A DNA stretch of 64,000 nt from Actinomycetes bacterium (lineage in GTDB: Bacteria; Actinomycetota; CALGFH01): the NCBI GenBank assembly GCA_036000965.1, contig DASYUT010000124.1:1-64000 (forward strand). The letters run 5' to 3'. The translations under genes were made by a program, and so were the position numbers. Shown here piece after piece: positions 46,964 to 59,613 of this stretch (positions are counted from its first letter, which is position 1; every line of letters begins with the position of its first letter). The notes under the pieces were generated by a model. The model saw only the letters and a list, made by a program, of their open reading frames with translations, was not told the DNA's origin and ran no database searches.

Positions 46964-47136
46964 AGCCGACACATCAAGCAGCCTGACCATCGAGAATGTC
47001 GCCCGGCTCGCTGACATCACCGTCCGGCGCGTTGCGCTGAGCTCGGACAGAACCACGCGGGATACGTCCCGAAGGAACGCCGCTGCTATCGCGACGACCG
47101 TCTGGAGCGGTGCAGGTGCGATGGCTGGCTCACTGC

Positions 47137-47885
47137 CTAACCAAGGCGGGTCTCCTCGACGTCCAGGTCGTGGAGCACGCGGCGGAACACCTCTGAGCTG
47201 ATGCCGTGCTTGTCGCGCAGATGGAACAGTTCATCCCGCTCTGCTTCGAGGAGCTCACGGCGCACTTCTGCCAGGGTCTGGTCCAGCCGGTCGTAGTCGC
47301 CGCCAGCCCGATCGTCACCGCGCCGACCGCGGCCAGCAGGAAGCCGCCGGCGACCCGGACCGCCGAGAAGCTGCCGGTCACCACCGCGGCGACCGCCAGC
47401 CGGTAGGCGACCAGCGCGGTCGCGTCGTTGAACAGGCCTTCGGCCTCCAGGATGGTGACCAGGCGGCGCGGCAGGCCCAGCCGGTTGGCGATGGCGGTGG
47501 CCGCCACTGGGTCAGGCGGCGAGATGATCGCGCCGAGGGTGAAGCCGACCGGCCAGCTCACCCCGGGGATGGCGAGATGGGCGGTGACGGCCACCACCGC
47601 GATCGTGGCCAGGACCAGGCCGAAGGCGAGCAGGCTGATCGGCTGCAGGTTCTCCCGCAATTCCCGTACGGGCGTGGCGATTGCCGCCGCGTACAGCAGC
47701 GGGGGCAAGAACACCAGCAGCACCAGTTCGGGGTCGGGCTCCACCAGCGGCAGGCCCGGCACCAGCCCGATCGCCAGCCCGCCCAGCACCAGCAGGATCG
47801 GGTAGGGAACGTCGATGCGGCGCGCCAGGGTCGCGATGACCACCAGCAGCACGAACAGCCCGAAGATCGCTTCCAACTGGTCCAC
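47137..47885 (-). pseudogene. CPA1-type Na+/H+ antiporter with internal deletion
   Basis: From ATG 47885 the first 205 residues are a good CPA1 antiporter: LEAIFGLFVLLVVIATLARR, LVFLPPLLYAAAIATPVREL, GAIISPPDPVAATAIANRLG and ILEAEGLFNDATALVAYRLA, including the D-P-V-A and N-D-A ion-site residues. After VGAVTIGLAA the frame breaks. Another frame then gives only the cytoplasmic tail, LDQTLAEVRRELLEAERDEL then DLDVEETRLG, ending at 47137. About 250 residues with the remaining helices are deleted. Inactive. Confidence 0.7.
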
Positions 47886-48318
47886 GAACGCTCCTCAGGC
47901 TCCCTCGGCGTCCCGCCTCAAACCGTACGGTGCCAAGGGTAGGTCCTGGGCAGTGGGTTGCGGCGTTGCTCGGCCCTAAGGTAGCCGCACGCTGGGACGA
48001 TCGCTCAGGGGATCAATAGGTACCCGCGGAATACCAGGAAGTCTGGTCGGACCCGAACCTGTGCTGCTTGCCATCGGGATCGCGTGCCTCACCGTTTCGA
48101 TTTGCGGCTGCCGTCGTTTCTGCCCTACGAGGAGTACTCGGTCGACCAGCGTCAGGCACGGCAGCGCAGCGGTCATTGCTACCGTGCTTTGCTTTCTGGA
48201 CGCGTGGCTGGTCAGGACCGCCGGTCGCTGAGGTTGTTGCCGCTGGCGCCCTTGACGGTGTGCCTCCGAGGATGGCAACGCCGACCCGATACTGCTCGTG
48301 ACACGCTCGGGGGGTGTG
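47886..48318. other. Intergenic region, no supported gene
   Basis: About 430 bp. A 13-bp sequence GATCGCTCAGGGG at 47999-48011 recurs at 59649-59661, exactly at the edge of the APC permease C-terminal fragment; this may be chance. No gene recognised. Confidence 0.3.
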
Positions 48319-49269
48319 CTACTGCAGGACAATGAGAGGGAGGCTTATGGCGTACCCAGCTAGCAGCAGCCCGGCCTCCCAGCGGTCCAGGCGTGCCTGG
48401 TTGGCGAGCAGCAGCCATGCCCCCAGGCTCGTCACCACCATCACCACGACCTGTGTAGTGGGCACCACGGGTGCCCGTGCGCCGGCACCGGCCAGCCCGA
48501 TCACTGCCCCGACGGCAAGGCTGTTGAACAGGTTGCTGCCCAGCAGGTTGCCGACCAGCAGGTCCGGTTCGTTGTGGCGCTGCGCCTGGATCGCGGTGAC
48601 CAGCTCGGGCAGGGAGGTCCCCACCGCTACCAGGGTGAAGCCGATCACCTCCGGCGGCACACCGAGTCTGGAGGCCAGCCCGGCGGCGCCCCAGACCAGC
48701 AGCTGCGCCCCGGCGAGGGTGCCGACCAGCCCAATCCCGGTGCGGATCAGCTCGGCCCGCAACGAGTGCTGGATGGTGCCGTCCACGTACTCGCCGACCT
48801 CGCCGGCCAGCACGTCCACCTTGCCCGCTAGGGCCGCCCGCAGCAGCAGCCACAGCGCGGCCGCGAGCAGCCCAAGCAGTACCGCGCCCTCGGCGAGGCT
48901 GAGCCCGCCGGGGACGAGGGCGGCGAAGGCCAGCACGGCGCCAACGCTGAGCGGCGCCTCCCAGCGCAGCACTGCCGAACGCACCGGCACCACGGCCATC
49001 AGCCCGGCGATGCCCAGCACCAGGGTCATGTTGGCGGCATTGGAGCCGACCACGTTGCCGACGGCCAGCTCGGTGCTGCCCTGCGCGGCGGCCAACCCGG
49101 AGACCAGCAGCTCAGGCGCGCTGGTGCCGAACCCGATGACGGCCACACCGATGAACACCGGTGATACACGCAGCCTGGTGGCCAGCCGGGCCGAGCCGAC
49201 GACGAAGTAGTCGGAGGCCTTGGCGAGCAGCAGCAGCCCCACCCCGAAGCCGACGAGCAGCTGGATCAC
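48319..49269 (-). CDS. YrbG-like Na+/Ca2+ exchanger (CaCA family)
   Basis: A 316-residue membrane protein with two inverted repeats of five helices. The paired alpha motifs are VIGFGTSAPELLVSGLAA with VVGSNAANMTLVLG in the first half and LVAVGTSLPELVTAIQAQ with LLGSNLFNSLAVGA in the second; the Glu/Asn/Ser residues form the cation site. CaCA proteins exchange Ca2+ for Na+ or H+. The start is GTG 49269. About 66 nt upstream is a hairpin in the leader. Intact. Confidence 0.92.
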   Translation of the reverse strand: MIQLLVGFGVGLLLLAKASDYFVVGSARLATRLRVSPVFIGVAVIGFGTSAPELLVSGLAAAQGSTELAVGNVVGSNAANMTLVLGIAGLMAVVPVRSAVLRWEAPLSVGAVLAFAALVPGGLSLAEGAVLLGLLAAALWLLLRAALAGKVDVLAGEVGEYVDGTIQHSLRAELIRTGIGLVGTLAGAQLLVWGAAGLASRLGVPPEVIGFTLVAVGTSLPELVTAIQAQRHNEPDLLVGNLLGSNLFNSLAVGAVIGLAGAGARAPVVPTTQVVVMVVTSLGAWLLLANQARLDRWEAGLLLAGYAISLPLIVLQ

Positions 49270-49334
49270 CGGGCCGCGCCGGTTCGCCGGAGGTGGGCGT
49301 CGCGACAGTCAGCGAACAAGGGTTGCATCCGCAC

Positions 49335-49369
49335 GGTCGGCTCCCGAGTACACCAGTCACGTGCCGACC
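49335..49369 (-). promoter_or_regulatory. Hairpin in the leader of the Na+/Ca2+ exchanger gene
   Basis: GGTCGGC (49335-49341) and GCCGACC (49363-49369) form a perfect 7-bp stem with a 21-nt loop, on the minus strand containing GACTGGTGTACTCGGGAG. The loop shows a loose resemblance to the leader element shared by three neighbouring operons (GGTG then CGGGA), but the match is weak and no -10 box is correctly placed. Confidence 0.3.
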
Positions 49370-49434
49370 AGACTGCCGCTCGAGACCTGGTCAGCAGCAG
49401 GTCAGGCTCGTCGAGGAGGCTCCCGATGGGGCAG

Positions 49435-49740
49435 CTATCCGGGTAGCTTGGCCGCAAGGACATCGACCGGCTCGATCACCGGTGGCTGCGCCAGCAGCTC
49501 AGGGGCTTGCGCCATCAGGGTGGCTGCGACCCGGCCCGCCAGGTGTGCCTGCCGGCCCGCGTCGTCGGGAAAGGCATCGAAGATGCCGAACTCCGACGTG
49601 CCAAGTTGGATCGCAAACCACGCGATCGTTGCCGGTTCCTCGTCGACCAGCGACAGCCCTCCCTCCAGAAAGCTGGTCACCTCGGCCTCTTTCCCGGGCT
49701 TGGCGACTAGGCGAACAAGCAGCCCTACGGTGACCATCAT
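49435..49740 (-). CDS. Antibiotic biosynthesis monooxygenase (ABM) domain protein
   Basis: A 101-residue ferredoxin-like-fold protein: MVTVGLLVRLVAKPGKEAEV then FLEGGLSLVDEEPATIAWFA and IFDAFPDDAGRQAHLAGRVA are the standard ABM strands and helices, normally dimeric. Family members are cofactor-free monooxygenases or quinol/heme-interacting proteins. AAAGGA lies about 7 nt before ATG 49740 (a second ATG follows). It stands between the exchanger and the ABC exporter. Confidence 0.85.
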   Translation of the reverse strand: MMVTVGLLVRLVAKPGKEAEVTSFLEGGLSLVDEEPATIAWFAIQLGTSEFGIFDAFPDDAGRQAHLAGRVAATLMAQAPELLAQPPVIEPVDVLAAKLPG

Positions 49741-49970
49741 GGCTGTCCTTTCCGGTGGTGCGGCCTGGCACAGACCGCGATTGGGGCATCCTACTGGGGG
49801 TTGGGGTGCCGTCGAACTGCCGCCGCCCATACAGGTGGCGGCAGGCCGAGACGCCCGATGTGGGACGGTCGGCGGACAGGTCAGCAACGCCGTGGGAGGT
49901 TCGCGTCGGGTTCCCGAGCAGGAGCTCGGTGGTCGCGTCGGGTTCAGTGCGCGGCAGCCAAGCCGCCTGC

Positions 49971-50045
49971 TATGGTTCGGGTGGTGCGCCGGGAAGTCGG
50001 GTCGGCATCGCTGTTGTGGCTGACGATTGCGGCTGGAGGCGCCCG
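49971..50045 (+). ncRNA. Shared 5' leader element, copy A (ABC exporter)
   Basis: A -10 box TATGGT (49971-49976) is followed after 3 nt by a 28-nt element at 49980-50007 that begins GGTGGTGCGCCGGGAAG and ends GGTCGGCA. It matches copies B and C at 26 of 28 positions. GCCG and CGGC within it can pair over an 11-nt loop. The leader then runs 38 nt to the ATG at 50046, with GGAGG at 50035-50039. Position relative to -10 indicates that the element forms the 5' end of the transcript. Confidence 0.65.
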
Positions 50046-50939
50046 ATGCCGAGCGAGCCCGTGATCCGTATCCAGGGGCTGACCAAGCACTTCGGGTCGG
50101 TCCGTGCGCTGGAGGATCTCGATCTCGCCGTCGAGCAGGGCGAGGTGTTCGGCTATCTGGGGCCCAACGGCGCCGGCAAGACGACGACGATCCGGTTGTT
50201 GCTGGACTTCATCCGGCCGACACGAGGCCGCGCGGAGCTGCTCGGCGGCTCCGGGGCGGACCCGCGGGTGCGGGCCAGGATCGGCTACCTGCCCGCGGAG
50301 CTCTCCATCGACCCTCGCTACACCACCACCGATCTGCTCGATTTCTACGGCCGGCTGCGTGGCGGCCACGACTCGCGCTGGGTGGCGATGCTGCTGGAAC
50401 GCTTCGACCTGGACCCCACCCGACCGGTGGGCGAGCTCAGCACCGGCAACCGGCGCAAGGTCGGCATCGTGCAGGCGGTGGCCCACCGCCCGGAGCTGCT
50501 CGTGCTGGACGAGCCGTCCTCGGGCCTGGATCCCCTGCTGCAGCATCAGTTCCAGCTGCTGATCAGGGAGCTGGTGGGCGAGGGCGCCACGGTGTTCCTG
50601 TCCAGCCACGCGCTGCCCGAGGTGGAGGTGCTGGCCCGGCGGGTGGCGATCCTGCGGGCGGGCCGCCTGGTGACGGTCGCCGGGGTCCAGGAGCTGCGCC
50701 GGCAGGCCCGCCAGCGCATCGACCTGCACGTGGCCGGGCCGGCAGACCCGGCGGACTTCGTCGGTGTCCCTGGCGTGGTGGAGGTCCACGCCAGCGATGG
50801 GACCGTGCAGCTGGTGGTGGAGGGCTCGGTGGACCAGGTCATCAAGGCCGCCGCGCGGCTGGAGGTGGTCCGCGTCATCACCCACCACGCCGACTTGGAG
50901 GACGTCTTCTTGCGCTACTACCAGGGGGAGCAGCCGTGA
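50046..50939 (+). CDS. ABC-2 exporter ATP-binding protein
   Basis: A 297-residue ATPase: Walker A GPNGAGKTT, signature LSTGNRRKVGIVQAVAHRP (G-N instead of G-G), Walker B LLVLDEPSSGLDP and H-loop LSSHALPEVE. The S-T-G-N signature and the C-terminal domain resemble ATPases of the Na+ exporter (NatA)/antibiotic-efflux group. It is co-transcribed with the overlapping permease gene and preceded by the shared leader element that also precedes an nhaA operon, which favours an ion- or stress-related export role (inference). Confidence 0.88.
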   Translation: MPSEPVIRIQGLTKHFGSVRALEDLDLAVEQGEVFGYLGPNGAGKTTTIRLLLDFIRPTRGRAELLGGSGADPRVRARIGYLPAELSIDPRYTTTDLLDFYGRLRGGHDSRWVAMLLERFDLDPTRPVGELSTGNRRKVGIVQAVAHRPELLVLDEPSSGLDPLLQHQFQLLIRELVGEGATVFLSSHALPEVEVLARRVAILRAGRLVTVAGVQELRRQARQRIDLHVAGPADPADFVGVPGVVEVHASDGTVQLVVEGSVDQVIKAAARLEVVRVITHHADLEDVFLRYYQGEQP

Positions 50940-51738
50940 TCGTGGCCGCCCGGCTGCTCCGTGACCGCCGCCGGTCGACCCTGTGGTGGATCGGTGGGCT
51001 GCTGGCGCTGGTGCTGTTCACGGTCGCGTTGTACCCCTCGATCAAGGGCCAGGCGTCCTTCGACCAGGTGATCGCCGACCTACCCGCGAGGGCTTCAAGG
51101 ACGTGATCGGCTACGAAGCCGGGGTGCCGCTGACCTCCCCGCCCGGCTATCTGCACGCCCGGCTGTTCGCCAGCCTGGCACCGCTGGTGGTGTTGGTGTT
51201 CGGCATCGGCGCCGGCGCGCAGGCCATCGGCGGCAGCGAGGAGGCCGGCACGCTGGAGCCGCTGCTGGCCAACCCGGTCACCCGCCGCCGGGTCGCGGCC
51301 GAACGCTACCTGGCAATCGTGGCGCTGCTGGTCGTCCTTGTGGCGGCGTTCACCCTGGCCCTGGTCGCCTTCGGCGCGCCGTTCGAGGTGCTGGACGGCG
51401 TGTCGCTGACCGGCTTGCTGGGTGCCTGCGCCGGGGTCTTCGGCATCGCCCTGCTGCATGCCAGCGTCGCCTTTGCGGTGGGCGCCGCGACCGGCCGACG
51501 GGGACCCGCGATCGCGGTGGCCACTGCCGTGGCGGTCGGCGGCTACCTCGTCCAGAGCCTGCTCAGCCTCACCGGCGCCCTGGCGCCGCTGCGTGCCATC
51601 ACACCCTGGCACTGGTACCTGGACCGCAACATGCTCGCGGAAGGACCCGCGGTCGCCGCGATCGTCCTGCCAGTTGTGGTGTCGGTGCCGGTCGTGCTGA
51701 TCGGCTGGGCGGCCTTCCGCCGCCGCGACCTCCGCTGA
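50936..51738 (+). pseudogene. ABC-2 exporter permease with a 2-nt frameshift
   Basis: GTG 50936 overlaps the ATPase stop (GTGA). The frame gives one helix (STLWWIGGLLALVLFTVALY) and PSIKGQASFDQVIADLP, then stops at 51106. Near 51089-51095 a 2-nt excess (CCCGCGAG where CCCGAG would keep the frame) shifts to the frame that continues EGFKDVIGYEAGVPLTSPPG and five more helices to 51738. Removing two bases restores a 266-residue permease of the NatB/ABC-2 type. It is either recently inactivated or a sequencing indel. Confidence 0.7.
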
Positions 51739-51884
51739 GAGCCACCGTCACGGTCCCGCGCACCCCAAGCCGGCCACGCACGCCGGGCCGCGGCCCGGCG
51801 GATCGGCGACCGGTCAGCGGCGAACGGGACGGCCGAGGGACGTGGAAACCCGGTCACGAATGCCGGAAGGGGAGCGGCTATCGC

Positions 51885-52277
51885 TCATGAGCGGCCGGCC
51901 CGCTGGTTGGCTTCGATGGTGTGGCGGGCGGTCAGGTACTGGTGTCGGAGCAGCAGCGGTGCCACGCCGACGAGCAGGGTGAGCACGACCGCCCAGATCC
52001 AGCGGAAGGCGGCGGGCAGCCGCGCTGGTGGCAGGAGCATGGCGAGCCAGGTCAGGGTGAGCCCGACCTGGAGCGGCAGGATGATCAGCGCATGGCGAAG
52101 GAGCAAGCGTTGCTGTCGGTGGGCCAACCCGGCCGCAATGGCTGCCTCATGGGGATCGGGAAGGCTCTCCCCGGCGCTGACTGCTTGCAGTACCCGAGCC
52201 CGGGCGGCATGGTCGAGGCGATCGTGGAAGGCGAGCCGCCATTCCGGGTCGTGTCCTTGCCGGATCCTGTCGTCCAT
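51885..52277 (-). CDS. Small membrane protein with two helices
   Basis: A 130-residue protein. A soluble N-terminal part (PEWRLAFHDRLDHAARARVL) is followed by two transmembrane helices (ALIILPLQVGLTLTWLAMLL and WIWAVVLTLLVGVAPLLL) and a short basic tail. No family recognised. It lies 53 bp after the NhaD-like permease gene on the same strand, so it may be the last gene of the NhaA-CBS-NhaD operon. Confidence 0.55.
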   Translation of the reverse strand: MDDRIRQGHDPEWRLAFHDRLDHAARARVLQAVSAGESLPDPHEAAIAAGLAHRQQRLLLRHALIILPLQVGLTLTWLAMLLPPARLPAAFRWIWAVVLTLLVGVAPLLLRHQYLTARHTIEANQRAGRS

Positions 52278-52330
52278 CGGTGGATGCTCGCGCCGTCTCT
52301 TGGGGGTCGTTGGGATGGCCGGGTGCGGGT

Positions 52331-53623
52331 TCAGGTGAAGGCGAAGTAGCGCAGCCACAGGTAGGGCACGCAGGCCAGCGTGGTGGCGACCGCGACCACC
52401 ACGCCGTAGCGGGTGAACTCCAGGAAGCGGATGGGTTGGCCGGCGCGTTGGGCAAGGCCGAGGATGACCACGTTGGCGCTGGCGCCGATGGCGGTGGCGT
52501 TGCCGCCAAGGTCGGCACCCAGCGCCAGCGACCACCACAGCACCGTCGCATCCCCATCGCCCTGCAGGTCCTGGACGAGGGTGGCGGTGACCGGCGCCAT
52601 GGTGGCCACATAGGGGATGTTGTCCACGATCGCCGACAGCACCCCCGAGACCCACAGCAGCAGCATGCTGCCAACCCACAAACTCCCCCCGGTCGCGGCG
52701 GCGACGGCCTCGGCGAGCTGGGCGATCACGCCGGTCTTGATCAGCGCGCCGACCATCACGAACAAGCCCGCAAAGAACGCCAGGGTGGGCCATTCCACCT
52801 CACGCAGGAACGGCCCAGGATCACGCCGGGCGACCAGCAGCAGCAGCCCCGCACCCAGCAGCGCCACCACCGACGGCTCGTAATGCAGCACCCCATGCAG
52901 CGCGAACGCGACCGTGACCAGCGCTAGGACCAGCAGGGAGCGGATTAGCAGGGGCCGGTCGGTCAGCGCCTCCCGCTCCTCCAGCGTCATGAGCTCGCGG
53001 GCGCGTTCGGGCCGGTAGACCAGCGCGTTGCGGAACAGCCAGCGGCTCATGGCGACAAACAGCAGCATCAGCACCACCACCAGCGGCGCGAGGTGGACCA
53101 GGAAGTCGGTGTAGGACAGGTCGGCCTGGCTGGCGATGATGATGTTGGGCGGGTCGCCGATCAGGGTGGCGGTGCCGCCGATGTTGGAGGCCAACGCCTC
53201 GGCGATCAGGAACGGCGCCGCGGGGATGTCCAGGCGTTCGCAGATCAGGAAGGTGACCGGGGCGACCAGCAGCACGGTGGTGACGTTGTCCAGCAGCGCC
53301 GAGGCGACCGCGGTGATGGTGGTCAGGGTCACCAGGATGCGAAACGGCCGCCCGCCGGCGCGCTTGGCCGACCAGATCGCCAGGTAGTCGAACAGGCCGG
53401 TCTGCTTGATGACGCCGACGATGACCATCATGCCCAGCAGCAGGAAGATGACGTCCCACTCGATCCCGAACCGCTCGGAGTGGAACGCGTCGGCCGAGGA
53501 CAGCAGCCCCAGGGCCAGCATCAGCCCGGCGCCGCCCAGCGCCACCGCCACCCGGTTGACCTTCTCGCTGGCGATCAACGCGTAGGCGCCGAGGAAGACG
53601 CCGACCGCCAGCGTCGCGCTCAC
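52331..53623 (-). CDS. NhaD/ArsB-type (SLC13/IT superfamily) permease
   Basis: A 430-residue transporter with 11-12 helices. LLLGMMVIVGVIKQTGLFDY, SALLDNVTTVLLVAPVTFLI and IGGTATLIGDPPNIIIAS are hallmark blocks of the ion-transporter superfamily shared by ArsB and the Na+/H+ antiporter NhaD; the second half repeats SGVLSAIVDNIPYVATMAP and GADLGGNATAIGASANVV. Given coupling (GTGA overlap) to a CBS protein and nhaA, Na+/H+ exchange is more likely than arsenite export (inference). No ars genes are nearby. Confidence 0.85.
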   Translation of the reverse strand: MSATLAVGVFLGAYALIASEKVNRVAVALGGAGLMLALGLLSSADAFHSERFGIEWDVIFLLLGMMVIVGVIKQTGLFDYLAIWSAKRAGGRPFRILVTLTTITAVASALLDNVTTVLLVAPVTFLICERLDIPAAPFLIAEALASNIGGTATLIGDPPNIIIASQADLSYTDFLVHLAPLVVVLMLLFVAMSRWLFRNALVYRPERARELMTLEEREALTDRPLLIRSLLVLALVTVAFALHGVLHYEPSVVALLGAGLLLLVARRDPGPFLREVEWPTLAFFAGLFVMVGALIKTGVIAQLAEAVAAATGGSLWVGSMLLLWVSGVLSAIVDNIPYVATMAPVTATLVQDLQGDGDATVLWWSLALGADLGGNATAIGASANVVILGLAQRAGQPIRFLEFTRYGVVVAVATTLACVPYLWLRYFAFT

Positions 53624-54081
53624 CGCGCCCCCAGCAGCCGGGTGATGAGCCGGGAGGTGGTGATGCCGCCCAACAGCCGGCCATCACGGTCGCGGACCAC
53701 CACCAGGGAGGCGCCGCCGCGGACCAGCGTCGCAGCGACCTTGACCAGGGTGTCGTCGGCGTCGACCTCGGCCAACCCGGCCGATGAGGCCGGCAGCAGC
53801 TCCCGGACCGGTCGGCCGCGCAGCCGCTGCCACAACGCATCAGCGACGTCCTCGCCCAGCACCCCGACCAGCGCCCGGTCCTCGGCCAGATAGCGGGGCA
53901 GCAGGAACGCCAGCAGCGCCGTGTCCGACACCACCCCCTGCAGGCCGCCGTGCTGGTCTTGGACGAACACGCCCTCCACCGGCTCCTCGGCCAGCAGCCG
54001 GGCCGCCTCCTCCGCTGGGGCGTCCGGCGTCAGCGACGGATAGGTGATGGCAAGGTCACGCGCACGCACCGGCTGGCTCAC
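53620..54081 (-). CDS. CBS-domain protein
   Basis: A 153-residue soluble protein made of a CBS pair: VRARDLAITYPSLTPDAPAE then LLAEEPVEGVFVQDQHGGLQ in the first, and VDADDTLVKVAATLVRGGAS then LVVVRDRDGRLLGGITTSRL in the second. CBS pairs bind adenosine nucleotides or c-di-AMP and gate channels and transporters. Its GTG start overlaps the nhaA stop and its stop overlaps the NhaD-like start, so it is translationally locked between two antiporters and probably regulates one or both. Confidence 0.88.
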   Translation of the reverse strand: MSQPVRARDLAITYPSLTPDAPAEEAARLLAEEPVEGVFVQDQHGGLQGVVSDTALLAFLLPRYLAEDRALVGVLGEDVADALWQRLRGRPVRELLPASSAGLAEVDADDTLVKVAATLVRGGASLVVVRDRDGRLLGGITTSRLITRLLGAR

Positions 54082-55439
54082 CTCCCTGCCCCGCCAGCGC
54101 CGCCAGCTGGCGGGGCGCCGCCAACGTGCGGCCGGCGGCCGGAAGGACGAACTGGCATGCGGAACAGCAGCCAGCCGATCGTGGTGGCCGCCGCCGAGGC
54201 GACCAGGATCCCGACCTTGGCCTCCTCCTCGGCCACCCGATCCGTGAAGGCGAGGTCGGTGACGAACAACGCGACCGTGAAGCCAATGCCAGCCAGGGCG
54301 GCCGCAGCCGCCAGCTGCTGGCGAGTGACCAGCCGCGGTAGCGTTCCCAGCCCGACCCGGACCACCAGCAGCGAGGCGCCGACGATTCCCACCAGCTTGC
54401 CCACCACCAGCCCCGCGAGAACACCCAGCGTGATCGGCGACCCGACCGCCCGAGCCAGCATGTCGCGATCCAGCGCCACCCCGGCGTTGGCCAGCGCAAA
54501 CACCGGCACCACCAGGTAGCTGGACCAAGGATGCAACAGGTCCTGCAGCCGCTGGATCGGGTGGACCGCCTCACCGACACCCAACGGGGTTTCCCACAGC
54601 ATCGCCGGGGTCGGGTCCGGCTCGAACCAACGGCCGAACCGGACACCACGGAGCACCTCGGCTGGCACCGGCGGGTAGGCGGTGAGCACCACGCCCAGGA
54701 GCAGCCCGGCGATAGCCGGGTGGATTCCGGACGTCGAGGTCGCCACCCACAACGCGACCCCGACCACCAGGTAGGCGAAGGTGCGCAGCACCCGCAGCAG
54801 CCGCAGCACCGTGACCACCGCGAACAGCTCCAGCGCCACCGCCACCGCCAGAAGGTTCACCACCTCAGCGTTGAGCAGCGCGATCACCGCGATGGCGGCG
54901 ATGTCGCCGACGAGCACCAGCGTCAGCAGCAGCACGCGCAGCTGCGGGGGGCAGCGCGGCCCGACCAGGGCCAGCACGCCCAGCACCAGCGCGAGATCGC
55001 CCGCCAGCGCGATCGGCCAGCCGCGCGCGGCCGGGCCGCTGGGGTTGAAGGCCAGGTACAGCAGCGCCGGCACGACCACGCCACCCGCCGCGGCCACCGC
55101 GGGCATGGTCATGGCCCGCCAGTCGCGCAGCTCGCCCAGCTTCAGCTGGCGGCTGAGCTCCACGCCAACCACCAGGAAAAACAGCACCATCAGCCCGTCG
55201 TTGACCCAGTGGCGCAGGTCCTTGGCCAGCTCGGCCTCGCCCACCTGGACCGACAGCCTGGTCGACCACAGCGTCTCGTAGCTGGCCGCCCACGGCGAGT
55301 TCACCCACACCAGCGCGGCCACGGTCGCCACCAGCAGCAGCAGCGCGCCGCGCGCCTCAGTGCCCATAAACAGGTGGAGCGGGCGCGTCAGGACGAAGAC
55401 GACGCCACGAGCAAAGAATCCAGAGGGGATGGTGCTCAC
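54078..55439 (-). CDS. nhaA: NhaA-type Na+/H+ antiporter, divergent active site
   Basis: A 453-residue protein of NhaA layout: LRHWVNDGLMVLFFLVVGVE, FNPSGPAARGWPIALAGDLA, HPWSSYLVVPVFALANAGVA and LAGIGFTVALFVTDLAF. The TM4 aspartate (D148) is present, but TM5 reads LVLVGD instead of the canonical D-D: G178-D179, so the residue equivalent to E. coli Asp163 is glycine. Asp163 mutants of E. coli NhaA are known to be inactive or severely impaired, so ion selectivity or stoichiometry may differ. GTG 55439 is preceded by CAGGAG. First gene of an operon with CBS and NhaD-like genes, behind leader copy B. Confidence 0.85.
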   Translation of the reverse strand: MSTIPSGFFARGVVFVLTRPLHLFMGTEARGALLLLVATVAALVWVNSPWAASYETLWSTRLSVQVGEAELAKDLRHWVNDGLMVLFFLVVGVELSRQLKLGELRDWRAMTMPAVAAAGGVVVPALLYLAFNPSGPAARGWPIALAGDLALVLGVLALVGPRCPPQLRVLLLTLVLVGDIAAIAVIALLNAEVVNLLAVAVALELFAVVTVLRLLRVLRTFAYLVVGVALWVATSTSGIHPAIAGLLLGVVLTAYPPVPAEVLRGVRFGRWFEPDPTPAMLWETPLGVGEAVHPIQRLQDLLHPWSSYLVVPVFALANAGVALDRDMLARAVGSPITLGVLAGLVVGKLVGIVGASLLVVRVGLGTLPRLVTRQQLAAAAALAGIGFTVALFVTDLAFTDRVAEEEAKVGILVASAAATTIGWLLFRMPVRPSGRRPHVGGAPPAGGAGGAGR

Positions 55440-55507
55440 GCACGGCTCCTGGTCGACAGCGAGCAACGTCTGCCGACCAGGCTTCCCGGCGCACCACCAG
55501 CAGCATA
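55440..55507 (-). ncRNA. Shared 5' leader element, copy B (nhaA operon)
   Basis: On the minus strand TTGGCG (55530-55525), 17 bp, TATGCT (55507-55502) is a good promoter. After exactly 3 nt the 28-nt element runs 55498-55471, beginning GGTGGTGCGCCGGGAAG and ending CTGGTCGGCA, identical to copy C. GCCG/CGGC can pair around the loop. The leader continues through a possible GTCGAC-containing stem to CAGGAG and the GTG start at 55439. Confidence 0.7.
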
Positions 55508-55782
55508 ACAACCCGGCCGGAGGGCGCCAAGCCGACGTGGCACCGCCACGCTCGGCAGCAGTCTGGAACCGAGCCTGGGAAGGCCGGATCGCAGGCATAG
55601 CCCGCCCTGGTGCAACGACCTCCGTCGCCTTACGTCACCGTCGGCGATGCGGCAGGCGGACACCACCTCGACGAGGCGGTCGTCCATGTCTGCCTGCCGC
55701 CTTTGGGACCAGAGGCAAGCCGCAGATGCGCGACACCGGCCCAGGCCAGCGGCTGCCCACGCGGGCGCCGGCGGGTTGCTGC

Positions 55783-55850
55783 TAGACTTGCGGTGGTGCG
55801 CCGGGAAGCCTGGTCGGCAGTTGACATCGTCGACAGGTCAGGAGTGCACG
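55783..55850 (+). ncRNA. Shared 5' leader element, copy C (nfeD-slipin)
   Basis: TAGACT (55783-55788) is followed after 3 nt by the 28-nt element at 55792-55819, identical over its whole length to copy B although the genes are divergent and unrelated. Downstream, GTTGAC-ATC-GTCGAC (55820-55834, one G-U pair) can form a second stem just before CAGGAG and the GTG at 55851, positioned to affect translation initiation. Confidence 0.7.
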
Positions 55851-57206
55851 GTGGTTCGTGCGGCGGCATGGGTCGCCAGCGCAGCCGATGCCATGCCGGC
55901 CGAGCGCGGTCCGCGTCCCAGCCGGCTCGCGGCGGCGTTCCTGCTCGCCGCCGCCCTGGCCTGGTCGGTCGGCTTCCCCGGCGGGGCTACCGCTCAAGCA
56001 TCGACCGTGCTGGTGACCCGCGTCGACGGGACGATCACCCCAGTGATCGCCGATCACCTCGTGGACGGCGTCGCCGCTGCCGAGCGGGACAGGCATGCCG
56101 CCTACCTGGTCGAGCTGGACACCCCCGGTGGGCTGGACACCTCCATGCGGGAGATCATCAAAGCGTTCCTCGGCGCCGACGTCCCGGTGGTCGTCTACGT
56201 CACCCCATCGGGGGCGCGGGCCGCCTCGGCCGGGGCGCTGATCACCTTCGCGGCCAACCTCGCCGCCATGGCCCCAGGCACCACAATCGGCGCGGCCACC
56301 CCGGTCGACCTGCAGGGCGGCGAGATCTCCGACAAGGTGCTCAACGACGCCGCCGCCTTCGCCGAGACCGTCGCCGCCCAACGTGGCCGCAACAAACAGT
56401 TCGCCATCGACACCGTCCGCAAGGGCCGCGCGGTCACGGCCGAGGAGGCCGTGCGGCTGGACGCGGTCGACCTGCTCGCCGCCAGCCGCGCCGAGCTGCT
56501 CCAGGAGCTGGACGGCCGCAGCGTCCGGGTCGCCTCCGGGAACACCGTCACCCTGGAGACGGCCGGTGCCACCGTGGTCGAGCAGGGCTTCGGGGTGTTT
56601 CGCCGGTTGCTGCAGCTGCTGGCCGATCCCAACCTGGCGTTTCTGTTCCTGTCGCTTGGCACGCTGGCGATCATCTACGAGCTGGCCAACCCGGGAGTCG
56701 GCTTCGGCGGCATCGCCGGGGCGATCTTCCTGCTGCTTGGCTTCTTCGCGCTGTCGGTGCTGCCGATCAACCTGGTCGGGCTGCTGCTGCTGGCGCTGGC
56801 GGCCGCGCTGTTCGTCGCCGAGCTGTTCGTCCCCGGGGTGGGGGTGTTCGCCGCCGGCGGCACCGTCGCCCTGGTGCTTGGTGGGCTGTTCCTGTTCGAC
56901 GGCGCGGTCGGGATCGACCCGGCCGTGCTGGTCCCGGTGGCGCTGGTCGTCGGTGGCGGGTCGGTGCTGGCGGGCCGGCTGGCCTGGCGGGCGCGGCATG
57001 CCCCCAGCATCAGCGGCCGGGAAGCCCTGGTCGGCCGCCAGGTCACCGTGCGGACCGCTGAGGGTCCCACCGGGCAGGTGCTGCTGGACGGTGCCTGGTG
57101 GACCGTCCGCAGCCGCGGCGCCCCGCTGACACCGGGGCAAACCGTTCGGGTCGTTGACCTGGAGGGCCTGGAACTGATCGTCGACCCTGAGGAGGGAACC
57201 TCATGA
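55851..57206 (+). CDS. NfeD family membrane protease (long form with ClpP-like domain)
   Basis: A 451-residue protein. A signal sequence (about 20-45) is followed by a ClpP/crotonase-fold serine protease domain (about 50-235), with the catalytic Ser in [20 protein letters not shown] and Lys in [16 protein letters not shown]. Then come four to five hydrophobic helices ([20 protein letters not shown] region) and a C-terminal OB-fold NfeD domain ([20 protein letters not shown]). Long NfeD proteins cleave stomatin-like partners in the membrane; the slipin gene overlaps its stop codon. GTG 55851 has AGGAG about 7 nt upstream. Leader copy C precedes it. Confidence 0.9.
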
Positions 57207-58051
57207 GCGGCCTGACCATCGGCCTGGCACTGGCGCTTGCCGTCGTGCTGGTTCTGCTGGCGATGTCGGTGCGGATCGTCAACGAGTACGAACGCGGGGT
57301 GATCTTCCGGCTGGGCCGGGTGATCGGCGCCAAGGGCCCGGGGCTGTTCTTCATCATCCCGGTCGTGGACCGCATGGTGAAGGTCTCGCTGCGCACCGTG
57401 ACGATGGACATTCCACCCCAGGACGTCATCACCCGCGACAACGTCACCGTCAAGGTCAACGCCGTCACCTACTTCAACGTGGTCGACCCGGTCCGCTCGG
57501 TGGTCGCGATCGAGAACTACCTGTTCGGCACCTCCCAGATCGCCCAGACGACCCTGCGCAGCATCCTCGGCCAGGTCGACCTGGACGAGCTGCTGATCAA
57601 CCGCGACGAGATCAACCAGCGGCTGCAACAGATCATCGACCAGCTGACCGACGCCTGGGGGATCAAGGTCACCCTGGTCGAGGTCAAAGACGTCGAGCTG
57701 CCCGAGACCATGCGCCGGGCCATGGCCAGCCAGGCCGAGGCCGAACGCGACCGGCGCGCCAAGGTCATCCACGCCCTCGGCGAGCGCGAGGCCGCCGGCG
57801 CGCTCGGTGAGGCGGCCGTCGTGCTGGAGAACCACCCGGCGGCGATGCAGCTGCGGGTGCTGTCGACCATGGTCGAGGTGTCGGCCGAGCGGAACTCCAC
57901 CCTCATCTTCCCGCTGCCGGTCGAGCTCCTGCGGCTGGTCGACACCCTACGCGGCATCCCTCAGCCCGCCGTCGGCTCCCACCCCACAGCCGGAGGCGGC
58001 CAGGACCCAGCCACCAGCGCACCATCGGCGTCAGGAGACAAGGAAGAATGA
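57203..58051 (+). CDS. Slipin (stomatin-like SPFH protein)
   Basis: A 282-residue SPFH protein: one N-terminal membrane helix ([20 protein letters not shown]), then [52 protein letters not shown]-type strand [20 protein letters not shown], and the coiled [20 protein letters not shown]. It should oligomerise at the inner face of the membrane and be processed by NfeD, with which it shares an ATGA overlap. A Ser/Pro-rich tail ends the protein. Confidence 0.92.
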
Positions 58052-58254
58052 TCCGCCAGCCTCGCATGCTCGGCGCCTCCAGGAATCTGCGCCAGCCAGG
58101 CCAGGCCTGATCGCAGCAGAACGCCGCCCTTGCCGACCACGGGCCGGCACCAAGCACGTTCAGCGTCATGCGCGCGTACGGACTCTGGCCCGTGGGGCAT
58201 GGCTGCTGGCGGAGCGGCCTCAGGATCACCTCTTCCTAGCTTCACGGGGGCAAG

Positions 58255-59613
58255 ATGGATCCGGATGACGAGCGGAGCCTCTCGGCAGAGGAGAGGATCC
58301 GGGTGCCTTGGTCCGGCAGCGCCGGCCCGGTCCCACGCCTGGTCCTCCGACCCCTGCAGGCCTTCCTGCACACCGAGGAGGCCGGCGGCATCCTGCTGCT
58401 CGTGGCGGCCGTCACCGCCCTGATCTGGGCGAACTCCCCGTGGCGTGGCTCCTACGACGCCTTCTGGCACACCGAGCTCACCCTCCGACTTGGCGGCTGG
58501 TCGTTGTCGGAGGACCTGCGGCACTGGGTCAACGACGCGCTCATGACCCTGTTCTTCCTGGTGGTCGGCCTGGAGATCAAGCGGGAGCTACGCACAGGTG
58601 AGCTTCGCGAGCCCAGGGCGGCGGTCCTGCCCGCCATCGCCGCGCTGGGTGGCATGGTCGTCCCCGCCCTGCTGTACCTCGCCATCAACCCAAGCGGTGA
58701 GGCGGCACGCGGCTGGGGCATCCCGATGGCCACCGACATCGCCTTCGCCCTCGGCGTGCTGGCGATCGTCGGTCGGGGGCTGCCGGCGGCGCTCAGGTCG
58801 TACCTGCTCGCCCTGGCCATCGTCGACGACATCGGCGCGATCCTCGTCATCGCCGTCTTCTACGCCGGGACCATCGCGGTCGGAGCGCTGCTGGCGGCCG
58901 GCGGTCTGCTCGCGCTGATCCTCGTCCTCCAGCTGCTGCACGTGCGCTGGGCGGTGGTGTACGTGGCGCTCGGCGTGGGCGTGTGGCTGGCCACGCTCGA
59001 GTCGGGCATCCACGCGACCATCGCCGGAGTCGCGCTGGGCCTGGCGACGCCCGCGGTCGCCTTCCAGCGTCCGAAGGCGGTGAGCCTGGAGGCGCATCGG
59101 GTCGCCGATCAGACGGTGGACCACCCCGTCCCGCCCGACGCCGACGCCCACCACTGGCTCCACCTGGCACGCCTGTCGCGCGAGGCGGTCTCCCCCCTGG
59201 CACGGCTGGAGCAGCTGCTCCACCCGTGGACCAGCTACGCCGTCATCCCCGTCTTCGCCCTGGCCAACGCCGGCGTCGCCATCGGCGGGTCGAGCCTGGC
59301 CGATGCCGTCACCAGCGGCGTCACCCTGGGGATCGTGGCGGGCCTGGTCGTCGGGAAGACAGTCGGCGTCACCGTCTTCACCTGGATGGCGACCAGGATC
59401 GGGATCACCCTGCTCCCGGAGGGCGTCCGCTGGAGCCAGCTGATCGGGGTCGCCGCGCTCGCCGGGATCGGGTTCACGGTCTCGCTGTTCATCACCGGTC
59501 TCGCGTTCCAGACCGAGTCGGGCCAGGAGGCGGCCAAGGTCGGTATTCTCGCGGCATCGCTGCTGGCAGGCCTGCTCGGCGCGCTGCTCCTCGCTCGTAC
59601 CCAGCGCCGATAG
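58255..59613 (+). CDS. nhaA: NhaA Na+/H+ antiporter, canonical
   Basis: A 452-residue antiporter with all key residues: TM4 [16 protein letters not shown] (D161), TM5 LALAIVDDIGAILVIAVFY (D191-D192), LVVGKTVGVTVF with the TM10 lysine, and [18 protein letters not shown]. It exchanges Na+ or Li+ for protons to protect against salt and alkali. It is the third NhaA-type gene in the window and the only stand-alone one with the intact Asp pair. Unlike the neighbouring operons it is not preceded by the shared leader element. The ATG at 58255 follows GGGGGCAAG. Confidence 0.92.
   Translation: MDPDDERSLSAEERIRVPWSGSAGPVPRLVLRPLQAFLHTEEAGGILLLVAAVTALIWANSPWRGSYDAFWHTELTLRLGGWSLSEDLRHWVNDALMTLFFLVVGLEIKRELRTGELREPRAAVLPAIAALGGMVVPALLYLAINPSGEAARGWGIPMATDIAFALGVLAIVGRGLPAALRSYLLALAIVDDIGAILVIAVFYAGTIAVGALLAAGGLLALILVLQLLHVRWAVVYVALGVGVWLATLESGIHATIAGVALGLATPAVAFQRPKAVSLEAHRVADQTVDHPVPPDADAHHWLHLARLSREAVSPLARLEQLLHPWTSYAVIPVFALANAGVAIGGSSLADAVTSGVTLGIVAGLVVGKTVGVTVFTWMATRIGITLLPEGVRWSQLIGVAALAGIGFTVSLFITGLAFQTESGQEAAKVGILAASLLAGLLGALLLARTQRR

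Follow-up and report, generated by a model that had tools for sequence, protein, structure and literature searches.

A candidate minimal riboswitch class at the 5′ end of Na+/H+ antiporter mRNAs in Actinomycetota and Chloroflexota

Three copies of a short element at the start of neighboring operons

The 64,000-nt stretch of contig DASYUT010000124.1 from an Actinomycetes bacterium that we analyzed, hereafter the window, carries the same 28-nt element, GGTGGTGCGCCGGGAAGYCKGGTCGGCA, at the 5′ end of three neighboring operons, one of which begins with the Na+/H+ antiporter gene nhaA. In our assessment, this element is likely to act in cis as an RNA switch and most likely represents a new minimal riboswitch class; it would occupy the first approximately 25 nt of mRNAs that encode Na+/H+ antiporters and related membrane proteins. 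The copies lie at 49980-50007 (plus strand), 55471-55498 (minus strand), and 55792-55819 (plus strand) and differ from the best copy by 2, 0, and 0 mismatches, while 100 dinucleotide-preserving shuffles of the window produced 0 matches. All three begin 3 nt after a −10-like box (TATGGT, 49971-49976, plus strand; TATGCT, 55502-55507, minus strand; TAGACT, 55783-55788, plus strand), exactly as the original prediction made for this DNA had described. The leading GGT of the 28-mer is found only in the three window copies, and the core shared with the wider family begins 3 nt further on, at the second GGTG (49983, 55495, and 55795).

The 25-nt core of copy 1 (49983-50007, plus strand; GGTGC GCCG GGAAGTCGGGT CGGC A, with T11 of the loop changed to G) scores 40.5 bits (E 3e-7) with the covariance model described below and is followed by a Shine-Dalgarno (SD) sequence, GGAGG (50035-50039), an ABC transporter ATPase gene resembling DrrA (50046-50939, PF00005), and an ABC-2 permease gene (50983-51738, PF12679), all on the same strand. 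Copy 2 (55471-55495, minus strand; GGTGC GCCG GGAAGCCTGGT CGGC A; 43.2 bits) precedes an SD sequence with its upstream flank, CGACCAGGAG (55446-55455), and then, on the same strand, the gene for NhaA (54078-55439, PF06965, E 1e-123), a CBS-domain open reading frame recognized from its translation alone, and a gene for a NhaD/CitMHS-type antiporter (52331-53623, PF03600). Copy 3 (55795-55819, plus strand; 43.8 bits) has the same core as copy 2 and stands ahead of genes for an NfeD protein (55851-57206, PF01957 and PF24961) and a slipin/band 7 protein (57203-58051, PF01145). The Pfam assignments thus agree with the exporter, antiporter, and NfeD-slipin operons named in the original prediction.

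A second nhaA gene 3′ of the NfeD-slipin pair (58255-59613, plus strand, PF06965) has no element of its own by covariance-model match, and the genome to which the window belongs yielded no further convincing copy beyond these three; one additional match in it (G000:C52:314) lacks the GGNG motif and is probably due to chance. The surrounding 12.5 kb (47133-59613) has the appearance of a sodium-homeostasis island, with a CPA1-type exchanger fragment, a Na/Ca exchanger, the ABC-2 exporter, NhaA, CBS, NhaD, NfeD-slipin, and the second NhaA.

A family at the predicted start of transcripts in two phyla

Across 188 nonredundant sites the core has the consensus GG[T/A]G[Y/A]-GCCG-GGAAGNCUGGU-CGGC-R, in which the 5′ GGNG is also invariant. 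A scan of the contig collection for the exact core returned at least 119 stretches, and among the titles listed nearly all were from Actinomycetota and a few from Chloroflexota. When the stem was left free, the relaxed pattern matched in 143 of 397 Actinomycetota genomes, above the reversed control. A covariance model of the family (R1), of the kind that the original prediction had envisaged, detected the element at E<=1e-4 in 106 of 392 good Actinomycetota genomes, with up to 8 copies per genome. The 9.7 Mb genome G128 is one with 8 copies, arranged as two clusters and a single site (G128:C1 374571-378840 and 2552613-2594074). In Chloroflexota, the element occurs in 9 of 121 genomes phylum-wide and, within one class, in 21 of 47. 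The Pseudomonadota outgroup had it in 0 of 119 genomes apart from a Mesorhizobium match (L094), which we treat as chance or contamination since no long open reading frame or antiporter start was found 3′ of it. Core matches in IMG/VR (L204-L208) were set aside because they lack the GGNG context.

The fixed distance to the promoter extends to the whole family. A TANNNT box lies 4-9 nt upstream of the core at 134 of 188 sites, against 8.5 expected in shuffles, and the distance is exactly 7 nt in 87 of them. This indicates that the element is the first approximately 25 nt of the RNA, with start sites predicted from promoter spacing, and extends to the family what had been proposed for the window.

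Gene context

The genes that follow the element point strongly, and independently in two phyla, to a role in Na+/H+ homeostasis. Among 124 downstream proteins from an Actinomycetota-dominated sample (stretches of the contig collection together with the window), 72 are NhaA (PF06965), 12 are CPA1 exchangers, 6 are CBS proteins, 4 are ABC ATPases, and 2 are CitMHS/NhaD, with a Na/Ca exchanger, TrkH, and NfeD found once each. The 34 downstream genes in Chloroflexota include 16 CPA1 and 4 NhaA genes (20 of 34 for the two together), 2 Na/Ca exchangers, 1 CitMHS, 3 DUF2254, and 3 P450 genes. The association with cation antiporter genes that a Na+ or Li+ sensor should have is therefore present, as an association only, and from its occurrence in both phyla ion sensing by the element appears likely.

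Other neighbors recur as well. Membrane proteins that resemble or match DUF2254 are encoded directly 3′ of the element in both phyla (L239, L244, L245, L310, L049, and L149), a recurrence that suggests a role for DUF2254 in cation or pH homeostasis. Genes of the PPDK_N type (resembling pyruvate phosphate dikinase/PEP synthase), which have no obvious ionic role, follow the element at 3 of the 124 sites, including L101 and L113 (minus strand), and cytochrome P450 genes do so at three Chloroflexota sites (L234, L237, and L242).

A short covarying hairpin

The part of the element that is both conserved and covarying is a single 4-bp hairpin, GCCG/CGGC, closed by an 11-nt loop. The original prediction had called this loop conserved and purine-rich; it is in fact a nearly invariant GGAAGNCUGGU. 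In a filtered alignment, pair counts are only modestly above those of shuffles because most sites are invariant, and since that alignment had been assembled from sites with complementary stems, the fair test of covariation is a search in which the loop is fixed and the stem is left free. This search found 26 variants with a change at a single stem position, and in 18 of them, spread over three of the four stem positions, the partner position carries the exact compensating change, where chance would give about 0.1 among 26. The compensated stems are of the types GTCG/CGAC, GCTG/CAGC, TCCG/CGGA, GGCG/CGCC, and ACCG/CGGT. In the remaining 8 variants, the 3′ side is not complementary, and the only one of these that kept CGGC (L187) lies within coding sequence, as do two fully complementary sites with three changes (L280 and L294) when read in context; all three were set aside.

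Next to the stem, positions −1 and 19 exchange in concert, with U-G at 86, C-A at 49, and C-G at 3 of the 188 sites, which fits a wobble-like contact, although of the two combinations only C-A remains associated in Chloroflexota. The element thus has what is expected of riboswitches in general, a conserved and structured 5′-leader aptamer with covariation, and the suggestion that it acts as an RNA leader gains support from this stem together with the competing structures described next.

Competing structures

In Chloroflexota, the element can pair over at least 8 bp with sequence 3′ of it, just ahead of a U-tract, at 20 of 36 sites, compared to 2.0 expected. One example is GGAGUGCCGGG...CCCGGCACUCC-UCUUUUCUUU, with a fold z of −4.5. 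The terminator and the hairpin use the same GCCGGG and are therefore mutually exclusive. At all 7 of 7 Chloroflexota sites with A-U as hairpin pair 0/18, the terminator likewise places a U opposite position 0, and position −1 is matched in the same way, a T by A or G and a C by G. Since the terminator search itself demands complementarity, the evidence lies in the persistence of long terminators when position 0 changes. No clear excess of U-tract terminators was found in Actinomycetota (7 sites with at least 8 bp, against 2.6 expected).

In the Actinomycetota leaders it is the 3′ half of the element that is engaged. Positions 12-19, with their GGUCGG, pair with the spacer at a probability of 0.54-0.68, compared to 0.21-0.34 in shuffled spacers, and the pairing site is mostly 1-8 nt upstream of the SD sequence. 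CGACC is correspondingly enriched, in 59 of 164 leaders against 24 expected, and the predicted probability of the hairpin is 0.002 in native leaders and 0.06 in shuffled ones (p 5e-23). The 5′ GGNG/GCCGGG half has no excess of pairing with the Actinomycetota spacer and pairs more weakly than in shuffles. In copy 2 of the window, CCUGGUCG (55474-55481, minus strand) is complementary to CGACCAGG, which overlaps the SD sequence, and the two are predicted to form an alternative OFF helix in a leader with a fold of −38.5 kcal/mol (z −4.4); in copies 1 and 3, the alternative helix is weak. Both phyla thus have an expression platform that is mutually exclusive with the aptamer, as in riboswitches generally, through terminators in Chloroflexota and an SD-proximal helix in Actinomycetota.

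A proposed switch and its alternatives

It is very probable that the element acts in cis as an RNA and takes part in competing structures, and this switch architecture is well supported. In the sensing form, the GCCG/CGGC hairpin capped by the 11-nt GGAAGNCUGGU, with the 5′ GGNG ahead of it, would form first during transcription as it emerges from RNA polymerase. If the signal were absent, part of the element would be pulled into the competing structure, which would win: in Chloroflexota an intrinsic terminator made from the 5′ half, GGAGUGCCGGG with CCCGGCACUCC and its U-tract, and in Actinomycetota a helix between GGUCGG of the 3′ half and CCGACC just 5′ of the SD sequence. If the signal were present, its binding would hold the hairpin, block the competing structure, and leave the antiporter gene ON. 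Since Na+ (or alkaline pH or Li+) should induce genes that export Na+, the switch is expected to be of the ON type. The sequences show the 5′ position relative to the promoter, the hairpin, the competing structures, and the gene context, whereas we infer the direction, the co-transcriptional control, the kinetics, and the ligand.

Direct binding of a ligand by this RNA seems probable to us. Judging from gene context alone, we would rank intracellular Na+ first as that ligand and then pH/H+ or Li+, the main alternatives, yet we would put Na+ itself at somewhat short of an even chance. The full proposal, a new riboswitch class whose aptamer of approximately 25 nt starts at the first transcribed nucleotide, senses Na+ (or pH) directly, and controls an antiporter regulon, translationally in Actinomycetota and through terminators in part of Chloroflexota, is in our estimation evenly balanced between true and false.

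Several observations weigh against a sensing switch of this kind. The near-invariance of the loop means that the loop itself provides no covariation, and it would serve just as well as a binding site for a protein or an antisense RNA. The P450, PPDK-like, and DUF2254 neighbors have no obvious link to Na+. Of the three leaders in the window, only that of copy 2 folds better than its shuffles (z is −0.35 for copy 1 and −0.21 for copy 3). Covariation of position 9 with the alternative helix is only weak (p 0.04). A simple model of SD accessibility is also not a general rule, since in thermodynamic modeling hairpin formation changes mean accessibility by 0.014 in native and 0.024 in shuffled leaders, and because mean accessibility is alike in both states, the output step in Actinomycetota is uncertain.

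The explanation that survives best beside a riboswitch, one that we regard as unlikely, is a conserved RNA-binding protein or trans-acting RNA that recognizes the hairpin and relays salt or pH stress, with no small ligand bound by the RNA. A protein, too, would recognize a small hairpin whose 11-nt loop is invariant, and it could equally drive the terminator and SD competition. CsrA, for instance, binds GGA loops. It is not typical of Actinomycetota, to our knowledge, and we know of no candidate protein for this hairpin. The 5′ GGNG is invariant too, which counts against a protein-bound hairpin, as does the use of the same element with different expression platforms in two phyla, a parallel to the metal riboswitches Na+-I and Li+-I (PMC9646797).

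A constitutive hairpin with no sensing role, serving to stabilize the mRNA or to set the basal level of translation, is a highly improbable explanation. Such 5′-terminal hairpins can stabilize mRNA, as in the case of Mycobacterium gyrase according to a reference listed in PMC3765725, but this would leave the invariant loop and narrow gene context unexplained, and native leaders disfavor the hairpin more than shuffled ones do and build terminators from it. The original prediction's main alternative, a conserved DNA operator that lies at +1 and is recognized by a transcription factor, would account for the strong conservation and the fixed distance to the −10 box, but it is the least credible of all, since an operator should have duplex half-sites conserved without compensatory pairing, whereas here 18 stem variants are compensated site by site, the −1/19 swap of U-G for C-A is not dyad-symmetric, and the sequence is part of intrinsic terminators whose 3′ arms track its changes.

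The element is a phylum-wide candidate sensor for Actinomycetota (among them Streptomyces, Mycolicibacterium, and Arthrobacter), in which the sensing of sodium or alkaline stress is largely an open question; riboswitches for Na+ and Li+ are known mainly from other phyla. It also ties DUF2254, NfeD-slipin, and certain ABC-2 exporters, all of unknown function, to cation homeostasis.

Comparison with known riboswitches

The original prediction had been reminded of the Na+ (DUF1646 motif) and Li+ (nhaA motifs) riboswitches, and identity with these is not borne out: cmscan with all Rfam 15 families, including the DUF1646/Na+-I, nhaA-I (RF03057), and nhaA-II/Li+-II models, found no match in the window or in 20 element-bearing loci, nor any in the leaders at thresholds as permissive as E 10. 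Outside the 224 RNAs collected by Weinberg et al. in 2017, to which the comparison did not extend, we also found no published description of the element.

The likeness to the known classes is one of context and control. Na+-I, reported from Firmicutes, Proteobacteria, Acidobacteria, and Verrucomicrobia, is a leader RNA 5′ of Na+ transport genes that acts as an ON switch and is built from two extended stems, P1 and P2; it and Li+-I control translation (for the Li+ classes, action chiefly at the ribosome-binding site is assumed), with terminator variants being rare (PMC9337991, PMC9646797). The element shares leader-mediated control 5′ of Na+ transport genes, and the ON type is our proposal for it, but in place of P1 and P2 it has one 4-bp hairpin with an 11-nt loop. 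Li+-I and the Na+-II variants resemble it in lying mostly 5′ of nhaA and in having rare terminator versions. The nhaA-I model, however, spans 55 nt, in which two stems, P1 and P2, enclose a conserved linker, an architecture absent from the single-hairpin element, and the GGUG and UGGUCGG strings common to both are placed differently in different folds. A genuine nhaA-I RNA does occur in 1 of 61 related genomes searched (L203, 1501-1555, minus strand, 47 bits), at a separate locus in Actinomycetota, a class otherwise reported mainly from other phyla. Li+-II is likewise found 5′ of nhaA, but its published architecture differs from that of the element.

In size and logic, a further parallel is the preQ1-I riboswitch, the smallest known aptamer at about 34 nt, which is also a very small hairpin competing with a terminator or SD sequence, although its sequence and gene context are unrelated. 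Should direct binding of Na+ hold true, the element would count as an extremely compact aptamer for a metal ion and, at approximately 25 nt, would take its place among the smallest known.

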